Source: Methanopyrus sp. SNP6
GTDB taxonomy: Archaea; JAADCQ01; Methanopyri; Methanopyrales; Methanopyraceae
Direction: 5' to 3'
Length of the DNA stretch: 64,000 bases
NCBI RefSeq assembly: GCF_002201895.1
Contig: NZ_CP019436.1
Span: 137,456 to 201,455 of the forward strand
The position numbers and the translations under genes are program-made. Under the pieces are notes generated by a model that worked only from the letters and a program-made list of their open reading frames with translations, ran no database searches and was not told where the DNA came from. This document shows, in pieces, positions 49,038 through 63,539 of this stretch. Position 1 is the first letter of the stretch; each line of letters starts with the position of its first letter.

Positions 49038-50026
49038 TCGGCCTCGGGGCTGTTGGACTGGGACTAATGCGACTTCTGGCCAAGAAGCGGGACGCGTACG
49101 CCCGGGAGTTCGGCATCGACGTTCGCGTGGTAGGAGTCGCGGATTCTCGAGGCGTCTGGGTGAAGAACGACCTTAACCCGGCCGAAGTGCTGAAGGCTAA
49201 GCGGGAACTGGGTACCGTGGCGGAGGTCGGTGAGAGCGGCGATGCGTTGCAGGTCATGGAGGAAGTGGAGTTCGACGTTCTCGTGGAGCTCACGCCCACC
49301 GATATAGAAACGGGCGAACCCGGTCTATCACACATCATGAAAGCCATAGAGTTGGGTAGGCACGTGGTAACTGCGAACAAAGGACCACTGGCAGTGGCTT
49401 ACGGGGAAATCATGGAGGCGGCCGAAGAAGCCGGCGTCGTCGTGCGTTACGAGGCTACGGCTGGCGGTGCCATGCCTGTGTTCAACCTCGTACGTGAGAC
49501 GCTGAAGAGTGTGGACATACGTTCGATAGAGGGTGTACTCAATGGCACTGTCAACTATATCCTCACCAGGATGGAAGAAGAGGGTATATCTCTGAAGGAT
49601 GCCATCGCCGAGGCGCAATCTCGTGGGATAGCCGAAGCGGATCCGAGTATGGACATTGAAGGGTGGGATACCGCCTGTAAGGTCGTCATCCTCGCGAACG
49701 CCATCTTGGGACTAGACTGCACCATCAAGGACGTTGACGTTACGGGTATCGAGGACGTCACACCTGAGGCCATTCGGATCGCGGAGGAGCGTGGCTACAG
49801 GATCAAATTAATCGGTCGAGCGGACAGCGACGGCGAGCTCTCGGTACGTCCGTGTCTGGTGCCGAAGTCCGACCCTGTGGCCAAGGTGAGGGGCGTCATG
49901 AACGTCGTGAGACTCGAGACCGACGTAGCTGGGGACATTTACGTGTCGGGTCGGGGCGCCGGTCCCTTAGAAACCGCTAGCGCCGTCATGAGTGATGTCC
50001 TCTCCATTGCCGAGAACGTTGGCTAG
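49013..50026 (+). CDS. hom: Homoserine dehydrogenase
   Basis: A 337-residue NAD(P)-dependent enzyme converting aspartate semialdehyde to homoserine. The Rossmann motif is VIGLGAVGLGLM, TANKGPLAVAY is conserved, and the substrate region is GVLNGTVNYILTRMEEEG with DPSMDIEGWDTACKVVILAN. The C-terminal ACT domain of bacterial enzymes is absent; the upstream ACT protein may replace it. GTG 49013. Confidence 0.95.
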   Translation: MRQARLFVIGLGAVGLGLMRLLAKKRDAYAREFGIDVRVVGVADSRGVWVKNDLNPAEVLKAKRELGTVAEVGESGDALQVMEEVEFDVLVELTPTDIETGEPGLSHIMKAIELGRHVVTANKGPLAVAYGEIMEAAEEAGVVVRYEATAGGAMPVFNLVRETLKSVDIRSIEGVLNGTVNYILTRMEEEGISLKDAIAEAQSRGIAEADPSMDIEGWDTACKVVILANAILGLDCTIKDVDVTGIEDVTPEAIRIAEERGYRIKLIGRADSDGELSVRPCLVPKSDPVAKVRGVMNVVRLETDVAGDIYVSGRGAGPLETASAVMSDVLSIAENVG

Positions 50027-52577: not shown

Positions 52578-53211
52578 CCCGCCCGTCCCCCGTAAGCTCC
52601 TTCTCGACCCTCTCTAGGAGCTCTCGGACCTCCTTCCACGTTTCGATCCACTGAACCATCGCCGCATGGTTCAATTCGACCGACGTTCGGCTGAACTCTA
52701 GCGGGCTGGGATCCTCTCCCACCCTACGAAGTATGGTTTTGATCATCCTCCTGAACTCGCTTCTGTCGAGCTTTCTGGGACCTTCCTGGACGAGCTCTTC
52801 CTTCTCGACCTCGTAATAGACAACGATTTCCCCATCTGTGAGGACCGCGAGAACGTCCTCCGGTCTCACATCCCGTTCTCTGACGAGGTAGGCGAAGTAC
52901 CTGAGCAGCTGATCACGGGCTTCCTCGAGCCTCCCTCCGCTGTTTAGCTCACCCGGTCTCTTCGTTTCGATTATCACCCGGTCACGAACGAGGATGTCGA
53001 TCCTTCTGGGTCTGTCTTGAAAGGTTCCGACTTCCGATCCGACTCCTACCTCCAGCATCACGTCACCAGGGCATAAGTCTCCCACCACCTCCAACGCATC
53101 CTCCAAAGTGCGCGCGACCCAGTGCTGTAAGAATTGGGAGGGTATCTCCGAATATCCAGCTACTTCGACGGCCTCACGGAACCGCAGGTATAACTCGTCC
53201 AGAACGTCCAA
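52552..53211 (-). CDS. Orphan PD-(D/E)XK nuclease-like protein
   Basis: A 219-residue protein resembling the N-terminal nuclease domain of type I restriction HsdR. The putative active site is Asp72 (RRIDIL) with Glu82 and Lys84 (VIIETK). A helical C-terminus (WIETWKEVRELLERVEKELT) follows. No methylase or specificity subunit is adjacent. TTG 53211. It may be a remnant of a restriction system or a repair nuclease. Confidence 0.65.
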   Translation of the reverse strand: MDVLDELYLRFREAVEVAGYSEIPSQFLQHWVARTLEDALEVVGDLCPGDVMLEVGVGSEVGTFQDRPRRIDILVRDRVIIETKRPGELNSGGRLEEARDQLLRYFAYLVRERDVRPEDVLAVLTDGEIVVYYEVEKEELVQEGPRKLDRSEFRRMIKTILRRVGEDPSPLEFSRTSVELNHAAMVQWIETWKEVRELLERVEKELTGDGRGGPRDLLL

Positions 53212-53243
53212 GAGGGGGTCCCCCGCACGTGGGAGGACTGGAA

Positions 53244-54125
53244 GTGTTCCCCGAGGTACTCGGACTAGTGTTCATTGGATACACGTTACGTAAGGTTGGG
53301 ATCTTCTCCGAAGATACACCCTCTCACCTCAACGCGTACGTGGTTTATTTGGCCATGCCGGCGTTAGTGTTCTCCGCGATGTTGAGGGCCCCGATCCAGG
53401 GGCTACTCCAACATCTCAAGCTCGTGGTTATCTCGATGTTGCTGTCGGTCACGTGTGCCTTCATCGGTTTCGCGATCGCTCGTAATACGGCGCGCGATCG
53501 GCGCGATGCGATAGCCGCTGCCCTAGCCTCGGGTTTGGGAAACACCGGGTTTTTTGGGTACCCCATATGCCTCTCCACATTCGGGGAACCGGGCCTCGAA
53601 GCGGCGGTTTTCTACGACTTCGGGACGACCTTGTCGGTGATAGCGGCCTACCTGATGCTGTCTTCCCGCCGCGAAAACCCATTGAAGATGAGCCTACGCT
53701 TTCCGCCCGCCCATGCCGCCGTCGCTGGGATATGTTGGACGGCCCTCGGACTTCACCTGCCCGATACCATCCGCTCGACTCTGCAGTTGCTGGGACGCTC
53801 CGTAGTGCCGGTCATCATGGTCTCACTCGGAGCCTCACTTCGGTGGGATCTCCCCAAATCCGTCATCAATGTGATACCGACCGTCTGGGTCGTTAAGTTG
53901 TGTACATCACCGGTAGTGGCGGTGGCAATCGCCCCATCGGGGTTGGACGGTAAAGTGGCCGTTCTAGAAGCCGCAATGCCTCCGGCCCTGATGAACTTGG
54001 TACTGGCAGAGCTCTTGGGACTGAGACTGCACGTAACCGCCGCCCTGGTGTTCTCGACTACCGTGATATCGCTAGCGACGGTTCCGACGGTGATCTACCT
54101 GATATCGGGTGGTGGTGGAGCGTGA
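53244..54125 (+). CDS. Auxin-efflux-carrier (AEC) family permease
   Basis: A 293-residue membrane protein with about ten spans. The AEC family features are LVFIGYTLRKVGIFSED, then YVVYLAMPALVFSAML and the ALASGLGNTGFFGYPICLST motif. The second half (SVVPVIMVSLGASLRWDLPK) repeats the fold. It exports an organic solute, unknown here. GTG 53244 follows GGGAGG by 7 bases. It overlaps the next gene by 4 bases (GTGA). Confidence 0.82.
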   Translation: MFPEVLGLVFIGYTLRKVGIFSEDTPSHLNAYVVYLAMPALVFSAMLRAPIQGLLQHLKLVVISMLLSVTCAFIGFAIARNTARDRRDAIAAALASGLGNTGFFGYPICLSTFGEPGLEAAVFYDFGTTLSVIAAYLMLSSRRENPLKMSLRFPPAHAAVAGICWTALGLHLPDTIRSTLQLLGRSVVPVIMVSLGASLRWDLPKSVINVIPTVWVVKLCTSPVVAVAIAPSGLDGKVAVLEAAMPPALMNLVLAELLGLRLHVTAALVFSTTVISLATVPTVIYLISGGGGA

Positions 54126-54658
54126 AAGTCCCAACCGTGTGTTATCGGGACGTGCATCGCTGCGAAACCTCTGAATGGTCGTCCTATGAAGAGTACCTCG
54201 ACAACATCCTACGAGACATAGCCTCGGAAGAGCCGGAGGTGCTACGGTTTGAGATCGGCGGATGTAGGCGAGACATCCTTCACGCGATCACAGCGTTCGA
54301 CGTCCTTTTCCGACTTTACCGCAGTAAGCGTAGAGTGGGTAAGGTGATGATCGACGGCATCGACGTGACCGAAATGTTAAAACCGATCTACGAACAGGCA
54401 TTCTCCAACTACGACGTCGTGCGGGCTAAGGTCGGCGTCCCGGAGAGACACCGGCATATTAGGACGGAGATTGAGATTAGGGACGGCCGAAAGATCGTAT
54501 TTCAAGAGGCGACTATGTCCAACTTACTCAGGGCGTTCGTAACCGTGAAGACCAGACCGGATGTGGTGTACGTGGAGTTAAAGCGCAAGAAGTTCGACGT
54601 CCCGGAGTACTCGGAGTGGCAGCTCGTCGAGACTTCAACGCGTACTCGGCGGCGTTGA
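54122..54658 (+). CDS. Unknown protein coupled to the AEC permease
   Basis: A 178-residue protein from GTG 54122, overlapping the permease stop. It begins KVPTVCYRDVHRCETSEWSS, contains GGCRRDILHAITAFDVLF, and ends with a basic tail. No family is recognised. Its 3' end runs into the decayed thioredoxin reductase on the other strand. Confidence 0.6.
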   Translation: MKVPTVCYRDVHRCETSEWSSYEEYLDNILRDIASEEPEVLRFEIGGCRRDILHAITAFDVLFRLYRSKRRVGKVMIDGIDVTEMLKPIYEQAFSNYDVVRAKVGVPERHRHIRTEIEIRDGRKIVFQEATMSNLLRAFVTVKTRPDVVYVELKRKKFDVPEYSEWQLVETSTRTRRR

Positions 54659-55532
54659 TTCCGGCCACGCTGCCATGGTACACGGCAAAGGGCAAGTTCC
54701 GATGCGAGACCGTCGTAACGTCTCTGGCGGAAAACTCCCTCCAGGATGTGCGCATTTCACTGTCCACGACTATGTGGCCGTGATCGTCGGTTTCCAAGAG
54801 ATACCGAAACGGTTCCGAGTTCGGCGCCTTACCGGCCGCTATGAAGACGCCCTCACAGGGTAGGAGATGTTCCCATCGGAGAGCTCGATGCCCTCGACGC
54901 GCTCGTTCCCGACGATCCGCCGAATTTAGTTACGACCAACCTCCGCGTTGCGGCGTAAGAGCATACGTTCAGTCAGGAGTCTTACACTCGAGCGTACCGT
55001 CTGGATTTATACACGCTCGGCTATCTCCGAAGAGGAAGAGACCCATGTTCGCTGCGTAGGTACCTCACACCAACAGCCGTGACGGTCCGGTTTTTGAAAG
55101 ATAGGGTTGTCGCAAATCGCACAGTAGCTGACTCCCCAGTCTTCGAACTCTCGCTCTCTAGGAACTCCTAACTGCTTCGGCCTGGCTCCCGTGGCAATCA
55201 CCACAGCCCTGCACTCCTCATCCAGGACGCGGGGAGGTATCGTCCGTTATCTCGATCCCCTAGATTCTGTTAGTGTACTTGTTGGTGTACTTGACGTCCG
55301 GCTCTACTCCGACGGTTTCAGCGTATGCCAACATTCGATCGACGGGTTCGTATCCCGGTGTGGGCGGGAAACCCGGGGCAGTTCCCGACCTCAGGCGCCG
55401 TGGTGAGCTGACCAACCGAGCTCCTGCGCGACGACGAGGTCCTCGACCCCGTCTCTAGCGTCATGGATAGCGGCGGAGAGCCCGGCGGGTCCGGCCCCGA
55501 TTACGATGATGTCGTACGACTTCACAGCCATC
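54620..55532 (-). pseudogene. Decayed thioredoxin reductase (trxB)
   Basis: ATG 55532 begins MAVKSYDIIVIGAGPAGLSA, the FAD site of TrxB. The frame shifts at GGTTGGTCAG (one extra T), after which VGQLTTAPEVGNCPGFP continues in another frame. Further frames give VIATGARPKQLGVPRERE with the redox GVSYCAICDN, and near 54800 GVFIAAGKAPNSEPFRYLL followed by ETDDHGHIVVDSEMRTS and AGINAAEYALK, the C-terminal FAD region. Several frameshifts and stops break the gene, so it is dead, but the fragments remain easy to align, suggesting recent loss. Confidence 0.85.
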
Positions 55533-55554
55533 GGAAGCCTTACCCTTGAGGACG

Positions 55555-56649
55555 TCAGCCGCTCCTCCTCAGCTTGTCGCAGAAGTCCTCTGCCATCGCC
55601 AAGATAACACCGACTGGGGGTTTACCCAACGGCTCGGGCAATACGTTAGCATCCACGACGTAAACGTTGTCGTATCCCTCCAGCGCGTACCTGTTGTCGA
55701 CTCTATCGGACAACGTTCCACCGGGATGTGCGCCCGAAGGCTCCGTGACGGCGCGTACTCTACCCCCCATCCTTGAGATGATTTCGCCCGCCACCGCGCA
55801 CCCTTCAGCGAAAAGCTCTATCTCTCGGACGCTGATTGGTTTCTCCCCGCTGATGACGTCGCCCGAGAGTTCGTCCGCAATTTTCACCATGATCGAGTAT
55901 TTGCCCTCATAAGCCGAAGTTCGATGTGGAGACAAGATGTACTCACCCATGTCGACGATTATTGGCATTTGAATGCCGGGTTCCGCCTCCAGGTCGGACA
56001 CGACGTGGATGTAAGCGTCCACGAACAGCGGACCGTCTGCGTCTATTCCGCTACGCTCCAGGAGCCGGGGTGTGCCGGGACAACCCGCGCACAATACAAC
56101 AATGTCGTCGGTTTCAAGTTCTACTGTCTGGGATCTAAGTACGATAGCGGCCGCTTTACCTCCAGAAAACTCAAATCGAATGCACTCGTCTCTCAGTACG
56201 CTAACTCCTTCAGGCAGCTCGTCCTGTGGAACCCACTTCGCATTTCTCGGACACTCTAAGCATTCTCCACACCCATCACACAGATCAAAATGAACGGATT
56301 TAGGCATATGCTCTGGTTCAAGTCCGACGTCCTCAGCGGCCTCTTCGAACTCAATATCGAGGTTTGACATGACCGAGTCAGGTGTTCTTCGTACCTCGCA
56401 CGTCATGTCGCGGAGAACTCGCTCAAATGGCCTCCGGAGGCCCTCAGGGCCCCAAAACCAGAAGTTACCCATCGAGTACCTGGCGGAGCCACCGAGCCCC
56501 TCTCCGTAGTAAACCCTATAATGCCCGAAGCGCTCCGACTGCAGTCTGTTCTCGGGGTGGGTAATCACGGTAACGTCGTATCCCATCTCATTAACTCGCC
56601 GCGCTACCCAACATCCCGAAGGGCCTGCGCCCACGATATAGACCTTCAA
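55555..56649 (-). CDS. GMC-type FAD oxidoreductase with Fe-S-like cysteine motif
   Basis: A 364-residue flavoprotein. The N-terminal dinucleotide fold is VYIVGAGPSGCWVARRVNEM; C-terminal HPGGTLSDRVDNRYALEG and VVDANVLPEPLGKPPVGVIL are typical of GMC oxidoreductases. Between them, CDGCGECLECPRNAK (near residue 125) supplies four cysteines that may bind an iron-sulfur cluster, allowing electron transfer instead of direct oxygen use. It is intact although both neighbours are decayed. Substrate unknown. TTG 56649. Confidence 0.75.
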   Translation of the reverse strand: MKVYIVGAGPSGCWVARRVNEMGYDVTVITHPENRLQSERFGHYRVYYGEGLGGSARYSMGNFWFWGPEGLRRPFERVLRDMTCEVRRTPDSVMSNLDIEFEEAAEDVGLEPEHMPKSVHFDLCDGCGECLECPRNAKWVPQDELPEGVSVLRDECIRFEFSGGKAAAIVLRSQTVELETDDIVVLCAGCPGTPRLLERSGIDADGPLFVDAYIHVVSDLEAEPGIQMPIIVDMGEYILSPHRTSAYEGKYSIMVKIADELSGDVISGEKPISVREIELFAEGCAVAGEIISRMGGRVRAVTEPSGAHPGGTLSDRVDNRYALEGYDNVYVVDANVLPEPLGKPPVGVILAMAEDFCDKLRRSG

Positions 56650-56755
56650 CTCGAGCCCTGGCAGTCACACGTCAAACGTACCTTTTTAGTAGCTCCCTTC
56701 CCAGGTACGGTGGGTTACCAACTCGGAAGTACGTGTATCCTCGGTCCCACTTGTC

Positions 56756-57090
56756 ATGTTATCGCCGGCCTCGCTCGTTGCAGCAGGCGTTGATGAGATG
56801 TTTCGCTCGGAAATCAACGGATTTAGGGGATTATTCCCGCTGAAATGGGGTCCGGGTTCGGCGAGACTGGCCGAGCAGCATGCGGCGAGGATGAATGAGG
56901 CGAATTGCACTCACGAGTGTCGTCAGGAGTATAGCTTCGAGAACATGGCGCGTATTCCGAACACGGGAGAACCTACCCTGACGGCCAAGTTGCTCGCAAT
57001 AACGGTGCTTTTCAGCACTCCACATCGGTAGAACGTTCGGAAGGGATTGCGAAGGTGTCGGTGTGTCGATCCCTGGAGATTATGGGGTGA
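56756..57090 (+). pseudogene. Truncated CAP/SCP-domain gene
   Basis: From ATG 56756 the frame reads EMFRSEINGFRGLFPLKWG, then ARLAEQHAARMNEANCTH and SFENMARI. This is the CAP (SCP/PR-1) fold with its conserved His and ENxA motifs. The frame hits TAG at 57029 right after STPHR, but NVRKGLRRCRCVDPW continues beyond it in the same frame like the CAP HRxNxL segment. There is no signal peptide, so both ends look damaged. Confidence 0.6.
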
Positions 57091-57105
57091 TCTCTCAGAA
57101 GACAT

Positions 57106-57117
57106 GCTAAATTAAAG
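57106..57117 (+). promoter_or_regulatory. TATA-like box before the GTPase operon
   Basis: GCTAAATTAAAG in an otherwise GC-rich region. It would start transcription near 57138, either leaderless for TTG 57139 or giving a ~380-base leader for the GTPase gene at 57521. Confidence 0.45.
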
Positions 57118-57138
57118 GTGCTACCGTTTCGTTAGGTA

Positions 57139-57378
57139 TTGACGGCGCACCGCGATGATGTGGAGATAGCTGTATCGAACGCTGTCTACCGAGAGCGCGA
57201 GCGGTCAGACTTCCCACAGTTCTGGACGAGGTACGAAACGAGTCTCGAAGAGCTCTGTGAGGCCACCAAGACACTGTCGATGGATGGCTCGTCAGGAACG
57301 CTGGCCCGACATTGTTACGGGACCCCAGTTAAGATCGCCGAAAACGTGCTCACTCCGCGCAGTATCTGCCGGTTGTGA
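57139..57378 (+). CDS. Doubtful small ORF
   Basis: A 79-codon frame from TTG 57139 (AHRDDVEIAVSNAVYRERER and so on) with no SD. Its start matches the transcription start expected from the TATA box. I recognise nothing in it; it may be a remnant or chance frame. The remaining sequence to 57520 shows no gene. Confidence 0.25.
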   Translation: MTAHRDDVEIAVSNAVYRERERSDFPQFWTRYETSLEELCEATKTLSMDGSSGTLARHCYGTPVKIAENVLTPRSICRL

Positions 57379-57520
57379 TCTCTGGGTTCCGAAAGGTCGC
57401 TTAGGAGTAGCCGCTCTCGAAGTTACCGAGGTAACCCCGCCGGACGGGAGTCCCGTCGTACGTCGCTACCGACCGTCAAACGTTCTTTACCAGTCGACGG
57501 CGCTAGCGAGGGGCACCGCG

Positions 57521-59755
57521 GTGAAGAGACGTATCAACGTCGCGATCGCCGGTCACGTAGACCATGGTAAATCCTCGCTGCTCGAGAGCATCACCGGGGA
57601 GTTTCCTGACAAAGAGGAGTTCGAGCTCAGCCGCGGTATCACTGCGGTCATGAAGGTGATACCGACGGAATGGAAAGGCGTAGAGATACGTTTCATCGAC
57701 ACGCCGGGACACTCGGACTTCAGGGAGGAGGTGGGTAAAGCGCTGTTAGTGTCGGACGGCTTAGTGCTCGTCGTGGCGGCCGACGACGGCGTGCAAGCTA
57801 GGACGGAAGTCATCATCGAGGAGGCGAAGGAGCTCGGGCTGCCAGTGGTCCTAGCGGTAAACAAGATGGACAAGGAAGGGGCGGATTTCGAGCGTGTAGT
57901 CAGGGAGGTCAAAGAACGAGGGCTCGAACCCGTGGCCGCCGTCCCCACGTCGGCCAAAACGGGTGAGGGAATCGAGGACTTACTGGACGCTATCGTGGAA
58001 CACATCGAACCGCGCGGGTGGGGAGACCCGGACGAGGAGACGGCTTTCCTCGTCGTCGACGTCGGAGAGCGGGAAGGACTCGGTTCGGTAGCTACCGGAG
58101 TGGTGCGTGCGGGTACCCTGAAACCTGGGGATGAACTCCGATACGAGGGAGAGGTCTATAGGGTTCGGGCCCTCCTCTCCCCGGACGAGAAACGAATGCA
58201 AGAAGCTCAGCCGGGTGACGTAGTACTGGTCGCGATGGACCGTGCGCCGGAGACAGGAATCCTTCTTACGGAAACAGGAGGGTACAGGGTCGAGAACCCC
58301 GAGGACGTGCGCCCTTGCGTCCGGTACACTGTCGAGGTAGACGACTTGAGGAAAGCCCGTGATATTCTCGAAGACGTAGAAAGGAGGAACCTCGGGGTCG
58401 AAACCGAGATCATCGATGAACGCCGCATTAAGATCTCGTGTCTCGGTGACGTACAATTCGACAAGATCCGCTCGGAGCTCGAGGGAGCGGGAATTCAGGT
58501 AGAGGTTACGTCCAGAGAGTTCGAGGGGGTGAAGACCGTCGGTGGAAGGGCGGTGGGTCGCTCCGGTCCGGTCGAGGTCGAGGTGCTCCCAAGAGCCTCT
58601 GAAGGCGTTCGGGTGTTCAAGCGGGGCAAGGATCGCGCCACCACGAAGGAGATTACAACGGTCCACCTAGTCGCGGAGGAACTCGGACTGGACGGACTCG
58701 TCGTGAACATACTCTCCGAGGGCGAATCCCCTCCCGAAGCTCTAGCGGATGCTATCGCGGCGGCGATTGAAGAGGTCGGGATCTTCGAACTGTACCCGAT
58801 CGAGAACGTACTTATTGAGGTAGACAACGTCGGGAAGGCAGCTTCCCTGGTGTACAAGCACGAGGGGCAAGTCATCGAATCGGACGAGTCTTCGATCAAG
58901 GCGATAGTGCCGGCGCCGCGGCTTAACGAGCTCGTGAGCGATCTCATGACGGAGACGTCGGGACGGGCGAGGATACGACTGATCTCGTCCGCAGGTGCGG
59001 GTGGCCCGATACTATCCGTGGATCCGGGCGAGGTGAACTTTGGGATCGCGTACATCCCCAGAAGAGGTCCTTGCGACGTCACCTCCGTCAAGCTAACCGG
59101 GCACACCCGTGACGCCAAGGTGGAAGAGCTGAGGCGTACACTGAAGATGTTCTTAGCGGACCGAGAAGAACCGAACCTCGTGTACGTCGGTAACGGACCA
59201 GGTCACGATGTGGCTGTCGAAGCCGTAGTGGATGTGCTTCCTGAGGTCGAGATAGTGTTAGTCGACGAGCGTGAGACGACGAAGGAAGCCGTGTACAGGT
59301 TATCGTCGGGCAAGCTCGAGAACGTTCGATCCAGGGACCTCCGGGATCACGGAGTAGCGGCGCTCGCGATCGCACGTCGCGGACAACTCGGTCGTAGGGT
59401 GAAGAAGCGCGTGGATCGTGAGACGGTCAGACGAGCCGTCGTCACGGCCTTCGGAGGTGGCTCTCGAAGGTTTGGCGATTACTCCAGACTACCGATACGC
59501 AATCCGGAGGAGTTGGAAGAAGGGACGATGCTACAAGTGAAGGATCCGAACGCAATCACGACTGGGCTGTCGAAAGGCGAAGTAGTCGTGTTCCACGGTT
59601 GGAGGGAGGACGGAGGGATGATCGCGTCGACGTTGACCGGAAACCGGGTGATCATCAAGCCGCGAGACGGTCGGTCGCTGAAGAACCCGCGTCGGTTCTT
59701 CGAGGTGTTCAGGCCGGTGAAGCCGAAACGAGGCTCGCAGAAAGGAGAGGGGTGA
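57521..59755 (+). CDS. EF-G-like translational GTPase fused to a YqgF/RuvX-like nuclease domain
   Basis: A 744-residue protein. Residues 1-160 form a translational GTPase domain: G1 AGHVDHGKSS (10-19), G3 DTPGHSDF, G4 NKMD, G5 SAKTGEG. A domain-II barrel follows, then regions resembling EF-G domains III (IKISCLGDVQFDKIRSELEG), IV, and V (LYPIENVLIEVDNVGKAASL). Residues ~495-625 look like an RNase-H-fold YqgF/RuvX domain: LSVDPGEVNFGIA with Asp501, VYVGNGPGH, VDERETTKEA with Glu583, and RDHGVAALAIA with Asp609. A basic C-terminal domain ends it. GTG 57521 follows GAGGGG by 7 bases. I know no described protein with this architecture. Confidence 0.75.
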   Translation: MKRRINVAIAGHVDHGKSSLLESITGEFPDKEEFELSRGITAVMKVIPTEWKGVEIRFIDTPGHSDFREEVGKALLVSDGLVLVVAADDGVQARTEVIIEEAKELGLPVVLAVNKMDKEGADFERVVREVKERGLEPVAAVPTSAKTGEGIEDLLDAIVEHIEPRGWGDPDEETAFLVVDVGEREGLGSVATGVVRAGTLKPGDELRYEGEVYRVRALLSPDEKRMQEAQPGDVVLVAMDRAPETGILLTETGGYRVENPEDVRPCVRYTVEVDDLRKARDILEDVERRNLGVETEIIDERRIKISCLGDVQFDKIRSELEGAGIQVEVTSREFEGVKTVGGRAVGRSGPVEVEVLPRASEGVRVFKRGKDRATTKEITTVHLVAEELGLDGLVVNILSEGESPPEALADAIAAAIEEVGIFELYPIENVLIEVDNVGKAASLVYKHEGQVIESDESSIKAIVPAPRLNELVSDLMTETSGRARIRLISSAGAGGPILSVDPGEVNFGIAYIPRRGPCDVTSVKLTGHTRDAKVEELRRTLKMFLADREEPNLVYVGNGPGHDVAVEAVVDVLPEVEIVLVDERETTKEAVYRLSSGKLENVRSRDLRDHGVAALAIARRGQLGRRVKKRVDRETVRRAVVTAFGGGSRRFGDYSRLPIRNPEELEEGTMLQVKDPNAITTGLSKGEVVVFHGWREDGGMIASTLTGNRVIIKPRDGRSLKNPRRFFEVFRPVKPKRGSQKGEG

Positions 59756-60438
59756 GCCGAAGTGTTGGCGTTGTTCCCCTGACGCACCCGTTCACGATCA
59801 CCCCTGAAGACTTCCGGAGCGTTTGGCGTTGGATCAAGATGTCGGGTATTATTCGAGTGTACACCGACAGCGAGTCGTTAGCAGAGCTGCTGAAACGGCC
59901 ACTACTCAGGGTCGTCCGCTCCTCACTCCGACCACCTACGGTCTCGTGGGCGGGTCCTTGCCCGGAAGAGGACCTTCGAAGAGCCGGTGCCGAGGTCGAG
60001 ATGAACGAATATCGGCCGTTTGAAGCCTCGAACGTCCTCGCACTGTGTACACGAACGTTTGCGCTCTTCCTGAAGGGCGTCCGGGGAAGTACTGTAGGGT
60101 TGGTAGGGTTCGGGGACCTCGACGATCTCCACCGTTACCTGGTCGAACTGGGATACCCGCGCACGTTCAAAGCGACGTCCACGCTCATGTTACGTCGTCG
60201 GGGATTAGAGGTGGACGAATTGTGGAAATTGTTCCCGGCATGGGTGGGGGACGAGGTCGAACCGTTGCTCCGAGAGACACTCAATTCCAACGTCGCGGAG
60301 GACCTCCTGGAGGAGGCGAGGTCTCTGACGTCCTCACTGGGACCGAGAGTCCGAGACCTCGAGACCACACCCACCGGACGCTTGCTACTGGCATCCTCTC
60401 AGACCGTGTGGGTCGTGAGGGGGGCGCTGAGCGGATGA
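59752..60438 (+). CDS. Unknown protein coupled to the GTPase-nuclease
   Basis: A 228-residue protein from GTG 59752, overlapping the previous stop (GTGA). It contains HPFTITPEDFRSVWRWIKMS, a GSTVGLVGFGDLDDLHRYLV segment that could be a small Rossmann-like strand-loop-helix, and a C-terminal AEDLLEEARSLTSSLGPRVR. No family is recognised. Its coupling suggests it partners the GTPase. Confidence 0.6.
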   Translation: MSRSVGVVPLTHPFTITPEDFRSVWRWIKMSGIIRVYTDSESLAELLKRPLLRVVRSSLRPPTVSWAGPCPEEDLRRAGAEVEMNEYRPFEASNVLALCTRTFALFLKGVRGSTVGLVGFGDLDDLHRYLVELGYPRTFKATSTLMLRRRGLEVDELWKLFPAWVGDEVEPLLRETLNSNVAEDLLEEARSLTSSLGPRVRDLETTPTGRLLLASSQTVWVVRGALSG

Positions 60439-60899
60439 TCTTGGGAGAGCACGTACTACGGGAGCTGTTCCCCGACTTGGACGAGAACCAGTACCAGCCA
60501 GCTGGCATCGATCTCAAGCTGGATAGGGTTTTCCGTCTCGAGGGTCAGAGTGCCCTGTTGGAGGGCGACGATAAGCGGCTACCGGAGTATCGCGAAGTCG
60601 AAACCGAAAGTGGGGTGTTCGAGCTCGAACCGAATGTCCCTTACGTACTCGAGCTGGCACCCGAGCTCGAGGTCCCAGAAGACACTGCCGCCCTATTCCT
60701 ACCGCGATCTACACTATTAAGATCCGGTGTCTCCGTACATACGGCTCTCGGCGACCCGGGTTTCAGGGGTAAGATCAGGGTTCTCGCCGTCAATCACCAC
60801 ACGGCACCGTACCGGGTAGCCCGTGGAGAACGTGTCGTTCAGGCTGTGTTCCTCCGGGCGGAAGATGCTGGTCGGTACGAGGGGAACTACGGCCGATGA
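60435..60899 (+). CDS. dCTP deaminase / dUTPase-family protein
   Basis: A 154-residue protein of the Dcd/Dut fold. LRELFPDLDENQYQPAGIDL and the core LFLPRSTLLRSGVSVHTALG followed by DPGFRGKIRVLAVNH match the dCTP deaminase family. It removes dCTP or dUTP-type nucleotides, keeping uracil out of DNA; which activity applies cannot be decided. ATG 60435 overlaps the previous stop (ATGA). Confidence 0.85.
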   Translation: MILGEHVLRELFPDLDENQYQPAGIDLKLDRVFRLEGQSALLEGDDKRLPEYREVETESGVFELEPNVPYVLELAPELEVPEDTAALFLPRSTLLRSGVSVHTALGDPGFRGKIRVLAVNHHTAPYRVARGERVVQAVFLRAEDAGRYEGNYGR

Positions 60900-61447
60900 C
60901 AGTAGTAGTGGTCGTGCGGAAAGGTAAACTGGTAAGATCGGCGTCCGGCGGCGTGCTAGAGGCCGACTCGTCGTCCACCCTCGTTCTCACGGAGGAGATG
61001 AACCTGTTGGTAGACACCGGAAACGAGGACCCGAAAGGACTGATCCGCGATCTCGAGCCGTACGGCGTCGACGCCGTTATCTTCACCCACGGACATCGGG
61101 ATCACGTAGGTAACGCCCGGACGATCGCCGAGGCGTTCCACCCGGAATTCTACGCGCACGAGAAGGAGGTTGGATCGATCCCCGTCGACGTGGACCCTAT
61201 CGACTCGTTCGACCCGCCCGAAGGTGTCGAGATCATCGAGACTCCGGGTCACACCCCTGGTCATATATCCGTAGTCGTGGGGGGCCGGATCGTGATCGCC
61301 GGGGACGCGTGTCCGACTCCCGACAACGCGCTGAAACGCGTACCGCCGGCTGTCAGTTGGGACCGCGAACTCGCGGAAGACTCCCTCGAGAAGGTTCTGT
61401 CGTACCCGGTCGTTATACCGGGACACGGGGTACACCTTAGGCGGTGA
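60896..61447 (+). CDS. Metallo-beta-lactamase-fold hydrolase
   Basis: A 183-residue hydrolase with metal ligands in THGHRDHVGN, TPGHTPGHIS, and Asp in VIAGDACPTPDN, plus PGHGVHLRR at the end. It resembles the short MBLAC1-like branch of the metallo-beta-lactamase fold, which includes RNA-acting enzymes. ATG 60896 overlaps the preceding stop (ATGA), completing a four-gene coupled operon. Confidence 0.82.
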   Translation: MTVVVVVRKGKLVRSASGGVLEADSSSTLVLTEEMNLLVDTGNEDPKGLIRDLEPYGVDAVIFTHGHRDHVGNARTIAEAFHPEFYAHEKEVGSIPVDVDPIDSFDPPEGVEIIETPGHTPGHISVVVGGRIVIAGDACPTPDNALKRVPPAVSWDRELAEDSLEKVLSYPVVIPGHGVHLRR

Positions 61448-61576
61448 AGGTGAAGGTAAATTATCTGGTGTACACGCCCGTGGTATCGTCAGCTGGATAT
61501 AGCTGACGTTAAAGGATGATCCACAACGACGAACGGCTCGAAGACCCGGTACGGTTCTCCCACCTCCTCGGCCCCT

Positions 61577-61584
61577 CTTATAGA
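61577..61584 (+). promoter_or_regulatory. TATA box of the MFS gene
   Basis: CTTATAGA about 75 bases before GTG 61654; transcription start near 61607, which excludes the upstream ATG 61516 as a start. Confidence 0.5.
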
Positions 61585-61653
61585 TCCACAGACATCTGGC
61601 CCATCAGCCGTGAAGGTTTTTCCGCGCGACGGGGTGATACGCCCGGGGTAGCG

Positions 61654-62661
61654 GTGTCCGTCGTCCGTTGGTCCCTTTACGTCAACTCGGCGGTGATTTC
61701 GGCGGCGGCAGCCCTGATGCTCCCGAACGTACCGGTATACGTATACAGTCGTGGCGGGGATGAGCTCGCGGCCAGCCTAGTCCTATCGATGTTCTCGATC
61801 ACGATGACTATCACCTCTTTGGCTTCAACGAGCCTCCTGGAAGGAGTTCGAGCTGGTATCCCTATATGTTTGGGATGTCTGGGATACGGTTGGGCCCTTC
61901 TACCTTTCTTCGTTCACGGCTCGATAGCGTCATTGACTCTCGCCAGAGCCCTTCAAGGAGTCTGCTCTGGATTCTCTTTCCCAGCTAACGTGGCCGCCGC
62001 ACTACAGTTGGGACGTTCCGTAGTGTCCAAGAACAATTTCTGGTCCAACGTCGGTTTCATCACCGGCTATTTGGCTTCTTCCCACGTACGGGACCCGTTC
62101 GGTATCTGCTCGGTCCTCAGCGTACTCGCCGCGGTCTTAAGTCTTCCACTGTTGACGCTGAGGATCCAACCGTTGGAAGACGTAAGCGCGTATCACGGGT
62201 ATCCGGTGGCGTTCGGAGCTGCGCTCGCACTTACGCTGGCCTCGACACTACCCAACTCAGCCATCACACTCCTTGCCCCCAAATACGGAGGTGATTACGG
62301 GCTCGTAATCGCCATGATGACCGCGGTCGGGGGAGTAGCTCAACTTCTAGGTCCCAGGCTCGGTGAACTCGAGTCAACACTGCTGGCGACCGTACTCTGC
62401 GTGGTCAGTGCTGCTCTCGGCTACTCGATAGCGAGCGTGCTCGCGGCCGGAACCGCCACAGGTCTCATGTACTACGCGGCTAACGTCTACAGCGGTGGAG
62501 GTAGGGGAGTTAGGGCCGTTTCCACGGCAATAGGAGTGGGTTACGCCGTGAATCAGACGATAGTGGGAGCGATCCTGTCCGCGGGACTCGACGGTTGGAG
62601 GTTCGCCACTCTCGCGGCGGCGGCGATAACACTGGTATCTCTCCTCGGGGTGAGGCGTTGA
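61654..62661 (+). CDS. MFS-type permease
   Basis: A 335-residue membrane protein with about ten to eleven spans. It shows MFS-like LARALQGVCSGFSFPANVAA between spans 4 and 5, and glycine-rich helices throughout. The solute is unknown. GTG 61654 is chosen because the TATA box lies downstream of the ATG at 61516 and because the N-terminus then starts at the first span. Its stop overlaps the TTG of the CDF gene (TTGA). Confidence 0.75.
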   Translation: MSVVRWSLYVNSAVISAAAALMLPNVPVYVYSRGGDELAASLVLSMFSITMTITSLASTSLLEGVRAGIPICLGCLGYGWALLPFFVHGSIASLTLARALQGVCSGFSFPANVAAALQLGRSVVSKNNFWSNVGFITGYLASSHVRDPFGICSVLSVLAAVLSLPLLTLRIQPLEDVSAYHGYPVAFGAALALTLASTLPNSAITLLAPKYGGDYGLVIAMMTAVGGVAQLLGPRLGELESTLLATVLCVVSAALGYSIASVLAAGTATGLMYYAANVYSGGGRGVRAVSTAIGVGYAVNQTIVGAILSAGLDGWRFATLAAAAITLVSLLGVRR

Positions 62662-63539
62662 GCCGCGTCGAGGAGCGCCTTCAGGAAGTTCGTAGAGGTG
62701 CGCTGATAGGGATCTACGGAAACGTCCTTTTATCGGCTCTCAAAATAGCGATAGGATATATCGCCAGCAGCTGGGCGTTGGTCTCCGACGGCGTTCATTC
62801 CCTGGGAGATACCGTATCTTCCGTAATGGTACTCTTGGGCGCCAAAGTCGCCCGAAAACCGCCGGACGCCCGTCACATGTACGGTCACTACAAGGCCGAA
62901 GCCCTCGCAGGACTGGGAGTTTCCATGATGGTCACGTTCACGGGTCTTCTACTGCTATGGGAGTCAATGATGCGTCTTCACAACCCGGAACCACCGACTT
63001 CCACACTGCCCTTAGCGGTGGCCCTCGGAACCGTGGCGGCTAAGGAAGGTATGTACAGGTACACACTGAGGCTGGCCGAACGCATAGGAAGCTCGGCGCT
63101 GAAAGCGGACGCTAAGCACCATCGCAGTGATGCCCTATCCTCGGTGGCTGCTAGCGTCGGTATCGCCGGAGCACTCTTGGGATATCCATGGGCGGATCCC
63201 GGTGCCGCGCTCGTAGTCTCGCTGATGGTCGCGCACATGGGTCTGGAGTTGTGTTGGGAGAGCATCCACGAGCTTATGGACGTGGCTCCCGAGGACGAAC
63301 TACTCGAGCGCGTTCACGAGATCGTGGAGAACACACTTCAAGACGTTGATTTTGACGTTGAACTCATCGCGGTGCGTGGCAGGAAGATGGGTCCGGCCTA
63401 CCATTTCGACGTTTTCATAGCCGCGGATCCTGAAGCACATCTCCAGGAACTCGATGTCGTCAGGAGACGGATCGTGAATGGGATCCGCCGAGAAATATCC
63501 GCCGCCGAGCTCGTAACCGTGGAATTCGTCCCAACGTAA
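62658..63539 (+). CDS. Cation diffusion facilitator (CDF) transporter
   Basis: A 293-residue metal-proton antiporter with about six spans. The metal site is formed by WALVSDGVHSLGDTVSS in span 2 and AKHHRSDALSSVAAS in span 5. A C-terminal cytoplasmic metal-sensing domain follows (YHFDVFIAADPEAHLQELDV). It exports Zn, Fe, Mn or similar. The TTG start lies after GGGGTGAGG. Confidence 0.9.
   Translation: MSRVEERLQEVRRGALIGIYGNVLLSALKIAIGYIASSWALVSDGVHSLGDTVSSVMVLLGAKVARKPPDARHMYGHYKAEALAGLGVSMMVTFTGLLLLWESMMRLHNPEPPTSTLPLAVALGTVAAKEGMYRYTLRLAERIGSSALKADAKHHRSDALSSVAASVGIAGALLGYPWADPGAALVVSLMVAHMGLELCWESIHELMDVAPEDELLERVHEIVENTLQDVDFDVELIAVRGRKMGPAYHFDVFIAADPEAHLQELDVVRRRIVNGIRREISAAELVTVEFVPT

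Follow-up and report, generated by a model that had tools for sequence, protein, structure and literature searches.

Archaea are described as carrying a defined set of translational GTPases, listed by Atkinson (2015) as aEF1A, aEF2, aIF5B, aIF2-gamma, aSelB, aSelBL, and GTPBP, where GTPBP is taken from the ancestral list of that study and aSelBL is the sole archaeal addition to the ancestral set (excerpts of PMC4342817). In Escherichia coli, the translational GTPases LepA and BipA are annotated as biogenesis or assembly factors of the 30S and 50S subunits, respectively. The nuclease YqgF of the same species is said to process pre-16S rRNA solely when this is within 70S ribosomes, while YqgF of Deinococcus is an Mn-dependent ribonuclease (RNase) whose activity is impaired by the substitution D22A and blocked by E106A and D122A; a Glu at the strand-5 position is the feature that sets YqgF apart from RuvC (excerpts of PMC9601230). 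Here, a gene that joins these two kinds of protein is examined. The gene, g1, is the first of four adjacent genes (g1 to g4) in a 64,000-nucleotide stretch (hereafter, the window) of the complete, 1.42 Mb genome of Methanopyrus sp. SNP6, and its product is a five-domain EF-G/LepA-type translational GTPase followed by a YqgF/RuvX-type domain and then by a C-terminal domain.

Domain architecture of g1

Residues 1-250 of g1 were assigned to translational GTPases by both Pfam and NCBIfam, and the PDB sequence matches of its G domain and domain II were translational GTPases as well. The protein combines the motifs of an EF-Tu-type G domain with an adjoining beta-barrel domain II, the combination that marks this superfamily (Table 1). 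The G domain has no large insert, and its motifs are intact in each of the 17 sequences spanning them; the Asgard rows carry T in place of N114. Further downstream, the domain IV-like stretch (residues 331-425) was placed by domain order and model secondary structure, and a weak Pfam EFG_C match was found at residues 426-485. An AlphaFold model of g1 (model 1, built from 18 sequences) could be aligned to EF-G, EF-2, and LepA across domains I to V, with Z scores of 30.1 for LepA (357 residues, root-mean-square deviation [rmsd] 5.3), 28.8 for EF-G (420 residues, rmsd 15.0), and 28.5 for archaeal EF-2 (461 residues, rmsd 8.1); structure searches with this model were dominated by the GTPase part. 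Neither LepA_C nor the BipA C-terminal domain is among the Pfam matches listed for g1, whose C-terminal part consists of the YqgF-like domain and one further domain. The only PADLOC hits, to the dynamin-like LeoA/LeoBC proteins, fell in the P-loop part and were set aside as generic GTPase similarity.

As judged from predicted structure, residues 495-627 adopt an RNase H fold of the clade that comprises RuvC, YqgF, Tex, and SPT6. When modeled separately (model 2, built from 17 sequences), the nuclease domain matched Tex (Z 13.0, 126 residues), RuvC (Z 12.1, 128 residues), SPT6 (Z 11.7, 120 residues), and YqgF (Z 11.2, 111 residues), and Pfam RuvX was matched in all 17 g1-family members. The proposed active site has the layout expected of YqgF/RuvX, with an Asp on strand 1 (D501), a Glu at the end of strand 5 (E583), and an Asp on the last helix (D609), and this triad is unchanged in all 18 aligned homologues. 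It could be argued that the domain has lost its nuclease function and now binds RNA or mimics tRNA, much like the RNase-H-fold domain of aeRF1/Pelota, since such release-factor domains function without nuclease residues (excerpts of PMC6514570) and a weak structural match to archaeal Pelota was obtained. However, the three proposed acidic residues of g1 are invariant (18/18) across homologues that share only about 30% identity, and a loss of nuclease function is considered rather improbable. A nuclease that has kept its active site is the preferred interpretation. The domain that follows (residues 628-744) is conserved across the sequences from Methanopyri, Loki, and Baldr; because the structure search barely covers this part (residues 142-257 of model 2), its fold is not called new here.

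Distribution and phylogeny

The g1 family occurs in 5 of 5 Methanopyri genomes, namely the window genome (G000), G001, G002, G003, and the metagenome-assembled genome (MAG) G004, and in 16 of 227 Asgard genomes (Loki and Baldr). A profile of g1 residues 255-744, run on 394 genomes, matched 9 of them: the five Methanopyri, two Asgard, and two with short matches (G175 and G299). In the Asgard phylum, 25 of the 227 genomes matched, comprising nine short matches and 16 full relatives, 15 from a single family and one other. The short matches in G175, G299, and the nine Asgard genomes involved the domain III-like end alone; they were taken to be of EF-2 type and were not counted. The named scan returned 20 loci, distributed among Methanopyri (3), Lokiarchaeota (14), and a Baldrarchaeum (1), and two that were regarded as ordinary translational GTPases and excluded, their matches being confined to the G-domain part (L098, residues 7-246; L099, best segment 1-210). 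Searches of two further archaeal phyla with the g1-family profile found 0 of 151 genomes in the phylum of G006 and 0 of 115 in that of G009, with 5 of 5 known carriers recovered in the positive control, and no relative was found in the other archaea searched, other methanogens included, or in a collection of viral contigs.

A tree of 25 GTPases, calculated from the G domain and those adjoining it, united the fusion proteins in one clade (support 98/97) outside EF-G, EF-2, BipA, LepA, IF2, EF-Tu/EF1A, and SelB. The clade was placed as sister to EF-G/EF-2/BipA/LepA at just 87/75 support, and grouping with EF-G or EF-2, as would be expected of a translocase of that type, was not observed. The proteins of Methanopyri and Loki share about 30% identity over their whole length, and in the family tree the Baldr homologue falls on the Methanopyri side on a long branch. 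With no root in this tree and so long a Baldr branch, vertical descent cannot be told apart from transfer. As separate observations, the contig of the Baldrarchaeum MAG (L095), where g1 is truncated, reads MCIRDS at its start (3-20), presumably an adaptor remnant, and the window genome encodes a 370-amino-acid SelB-like GTPase (L108; C1, ~49080-49691) with a very long tree branch.

Proposed function

The intact GTPase motifs, strong purifying selection (a ratio of nonsynonymous to synonymous substitution rates [dN/dS] of 0.063), and the YqgF-type active site together suggest that g1 is most likely a GTP-switched, ribosome-docking RNase of rRNA maturation or ribosome quality control. We infer docking, activity, and substrate alike, and the probability that this function is correct is put at about even. 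In such a scheme, GTP-bound g1 would use domains I, II, and V to dock on a ribosome or late pre-ribosome, at the factor-binding site. The ribosome would gate GTP hydrolysis through H64; hydrolysis would in turn time a metal-dependent RNA cut by D501/E583/D609 of the nuclease domain, and the cut would either trim an rRNA precursor or cleave RNA on a defective ribosome. The fusion fits a theme of rRNA or subunit maturation because of the assembly annotations of LepA and BipA, which rank among the closest structural kin of g1, and the link between YqgF and 16S maturation. In LepA and BipA, the domains behind domain V point to the side of the ribosome where the tRNAs lie, an arrangement that speaks for a rescue or shut-down activity whose substrate, in place of rRNA precursors, would be the mRNA or tRNA of stalled or stressed ribosomes. 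The fusion of clostridial Tet-type GTPases to an NYN RNase (excerpts of PMC4342817) points in the same direction. Nevertheless, this alternative substrate is judged unlikely: no toxin-antitoxin or rescue-factor neighbour was seen, and the steady synteny and strong purifying selection better suit a housekeeping role.

Several observations weigh against a ribosome-docking RNase. The RuvX score of the window g1 is 18.9 bits for the full protein and 22.1 bits for the fragment, below the Pfam gathering cut-off of 29.2, as is that of the Baldr homologue (28.1 bits). A PDB profile search by sequence with the nuclease part returned no match, and a profile comparison detected E. coli YqgF only weakly (E 0.02, probability 2.3%). 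The models are of middling confidence (predicted local distance difference test [pLDDT] 73 and 74, predicted template modeling score [pTM] 0.47 and 0.51), and domain placement and active-site geometry are thus only predicted. The neighbours of g1 in Asgard genomes, which include a dual-specificity phosphatase and oxidoreductases dependent on flavin adenine dinucleotide (FAD) or nicotinamide adenine dinucleotide (NAD), hint at nothing related to rRNA. Lastly, DNA junctions are also a substrate of RuvX/YqgF-type proteins, to go by the title of PDB 7ess, which calls a RuvX a Holliday junction resolvase. This title, and the presence of RuvC and RuvX among the structural matches, would be in line with g1 as a GTP-regulated DNA junction resolvase with no ribosome connection, but the active-site layout is that of YqgF and not that of RuvC, and apart from that domain g1 is a translational GTPase and not a DNA motor, making a resolvase scarcely probable. 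A ribosome-directed RNase continues to be favoured here.

Genes adjacent to g1

Table 1. Features of the g1-g4 locus (positions in the window).
Feature	Positions	Strand	Extent	Description
g1	57521-59755	+	744 aa	Translational GTPase fused to YqgF/RuvX-type nuclease domain
G domain	57521-58015	+	residues 1-165	GHVDHGKS, T41, DTPGH, NKMD, TSAK; Pfam GTP_EFTU 4.8e-41
Domain II beta-barrel	58034-58270	+	residues 172-250	Pfam EF-G_D2 8e-8 and model
Domains III-, IV-, V-like	58313-58987	+	residues ~265-330, 331-425, 426-489	Model secondary structure, structural alignment
YqgF/RuvX-type RNase H-fold domain	59003-59401	+	residues 495-627	Pfam RuvX and structural matches
D501	59021-59023	+		Proposed catalytic Asp, strand 1; invariant 18/18
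E583	59267-59269	+		Proposed catalytic Glu, end of strand 5; invariant 18/18; position as in YqgF
D609	59345-59347	+		Proposed catalytic Asp, last helix; invariant 18/18
C-terminal domain	59402-59752	+	residues 628-744	Helix and strands in models; no fold assigned
g2	59752-60438	+	228 aa	No function assigned; patchy within Methanopyri
g3	60435-60899	+	154 aa	DCD-like dUTPase
g4	60896-61447	+	183 aa	Small metallo-beta-lactamase (MBL)-fold hydrolase, HGHRDH motif

An initial annotation of the window had placed g1 in a translationally coupled operon with g2, g3, and g4, and the four genes were recovered together with the 4-base overlaps that link them (GTGA at 59752, ATGA at 60435, and ATGA at 60896). 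The identities that it proposed also hold, namely a GTPase with an RNase-H-fold domain, a protein of the DCD/dUTPase family, and an MBL-fold hydrolase. The start of g1 agrees with the starts of its homologues. Relative to the syntenic locus of G001, dN/dS is 0.19 for g2, 0.09 for g3, and 0.16 for g4; the substitution patterns of all four are those of coding genes, and the value for g1 is the lowest. DNA identity to G001 is about 91% across the four genes, making the window genome a sister species. Judging from the overlaps, the genes are probably co-transcribed, in keeping with the operon proposed. A search of positions 53000-62700 against Rfam gave no match, and a sigma-70/terminator scan, which is ill-suited to archaea, gave nothing above shuffled sequence.

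No match to g2 was found in Pfam, NCBIfam, PADLOC, or the PDB. The gene is found in G000, G001, and G004 and not in G002 or G003, where g1 and g3 overlap directly by ATGA; because G004, the most distant genome, carries it as do G000 and G001, a loss in the G002/G003 lineage would be simpler than two gains. For g3, the best NCBIfam family is the dUTPase NF002598 (6e-34; 116.9 bits, slightly below the cut-off of 130). The Glu of the GxxxLE.xN motif, which we take to be the catalytic residue of dCTP deaminase, is absent from g3 (GKIRVLAVN, versus GRLTLELVN in the other DCD-family protein of the genome), while the Asp of the dUTPase DPGFRG motif, presumably catalytic, is present (GDPGFRG). The earlier assignment to a dCTP-deaminase/dUTPase family thus stands at the level of the family, and because the deaminase Glu is absent, g3 is better named a dUTPase than a dCTP deaminase. 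The product of g4 matches Pfam Lactamase_B (4e-22).

From the coupling, the initial annotation drew a single pathway that combines nucleic-acid cutting, MBL hydrolysis, and nucleotide sanitation. The overlaps join the four genes, and the order g1-(g2)-g3-g4 is kept in four of five Methanopyri (window counted). However, NTGA overlaps link 12 of 38 same-strand neighbour pairs in the window (60 genes called, by a crude gene caller that missed the 154-amino-acid g3 and mis-started two other genes) and, being the local norm, say little on a shared pathway. Nor is the synteny special to these genes, since it extends in G001, G002, and G003 over a whole 10-gene stretch with unrelated transporters, which are equally syntenic (permease, 178-amino-acid protein, divergent FAD oxidoreductase, g1, (g2), g3, g4, MFS, CDF, CobB-like). 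Besides the absence of g2 from two of the five Methanopyri, g1 stands apart in G004, where it occupies the end of a contig, next to the FAD gene and to genes for ribosomal proteins (the latter named from a reading of open reading frames [ORFs]), and g2-g3-g4-MFS lie on another contig, with ATGA overlaps between g2 and g3 and between g3 and g4 and, upstream, a divergent frame that is not the same one. Because G004 is a MAG, this separation is possibly a binning or assembly fault.

Outside the Methanopyri, none of 219 ORFs in the 15 Asgard loci resembles g2, g3, or g4 (E <= 0.001); an MBL-superfamily gene is present in one of these loci, L093, but it is of a different kind, unrelated to g4, and lies on the opposite strand. 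Among 56 genomes outside the genus, none has adjacent dUTPase and MBL matches listed, the nearest pair being more than 2 kb apart with a weak and different MBL. Synteny of g3 and g4 is thus seen inside the Methanopyri only, within the larger syntenic block. Conservation across methanogens, which the initial annotation had put forward as a check, cannot exist because g1 is confined to the Methanopyri among the methanogens searched. A single pathway is accordingly held to be very unlikely, and g2, g3, and g4 are probably co-transcribed with g1 for general expression reasons.

In the Asgard loci, the dual-specificity phosphatase is near g1 in 11 of 15 (seven directly upstream), FAD/NAD oxidoreductases in 12, and DUF1667 in 11. 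A small protein of ~106-126 amino acids, a candidate partner, is near g1 in 12 of 15 loci (eight directly downstream) and has weak zinc-ribbon-like Pfam matches only (L096, 11800-12138; L083, 10469-10810). In the window, a GMC-like FAD oxidoreductase (55555-56649, - strand), which includes a CDGCGECLEC stretch rich in cysteine, is divergent from and beside g1, as in 5 of 5 Methanopyri. It is flanked by two regions of ~0.9 kb each without a convincing gene (56650-57520 and 54659-55554), which in G002 amount to some tens of bases or fewer; an ORF at 55007-55204 (- strand) encodes a thioredoxin-reductase-like fragment, perhaps a relic (weak Pfam Pyr_redox_2, E 0.09). The 178-amino-acid protein (54122-54658) has no significant family match (best Pfam E 0.04); its gene is syntenic in three Methanopyri relatives and overlaps the permease gene by 4 bases.

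Relation to known systems

No description of the GTPase-YqgF fusion was found in the open-access library searched, with subscription papers and database annotations outside the search. We tentatively propose, at somewhat less than even probability, that archaea possess one more class of translation factor, an RNase triggered by the ribosome and clocked by GTP, in which a five-domain EF-G/LepA-like GTPase delivers a YqgF nuclease to the ribosome, as an archaeal counterpart of bacterial YqgF plus LepA/BipA. The class would be either ancestral, with retention in Methanopyri and some Asgard only, or passed between them. If so, a GTPase switch and an RNase would be built into one ribosome factor, giving a direct handle on archaeal rRNA maturation or ribosome quality control, including in Asgard lineages near eukaryotes; the fusion would serve as Rosetta-stone evidence for the ribosome as the workplace of YqgF-type nucleases, with the residues to mutate already predicted.

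Like EF-G, EF-2, LepA, and BipA, g1 has the GTPase motifs and the order G, II, III, IV/V-like, yet it differs from them in forming a clade of its own (98/97) and in carrying a nuclease domain behind domain V. With LepA and TypA, it shares the lack of a G-domain insert (a comparison drawn partly from excerpts of PMC4342817). With YqgF/RuvX, g1 shares the RNase H fold, the D/E/D layout, and the DER.(S/T)T.EA-like and D.(A)A motifs, whereas its domain is fused instead of free and scores below the Pfam gathering threshold. A GxGPG turn stands in g1 where YqgF has its usual loop. The archaeal GTPases of Atkinson (2015) belong to the same superfamily, and no archaeal nuclease fusion is described in the excerpts of that study (PMC4342817). 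The clostridial Tet-type ribosomal protection GTPase with a YacP-like NYN RNase is, like g1, an EF-G-family GTPase with an added RNase, but that fusion is bacterial, employs another nuclease fold, and arose late within one subfamily (excerpts of PMC4342817).

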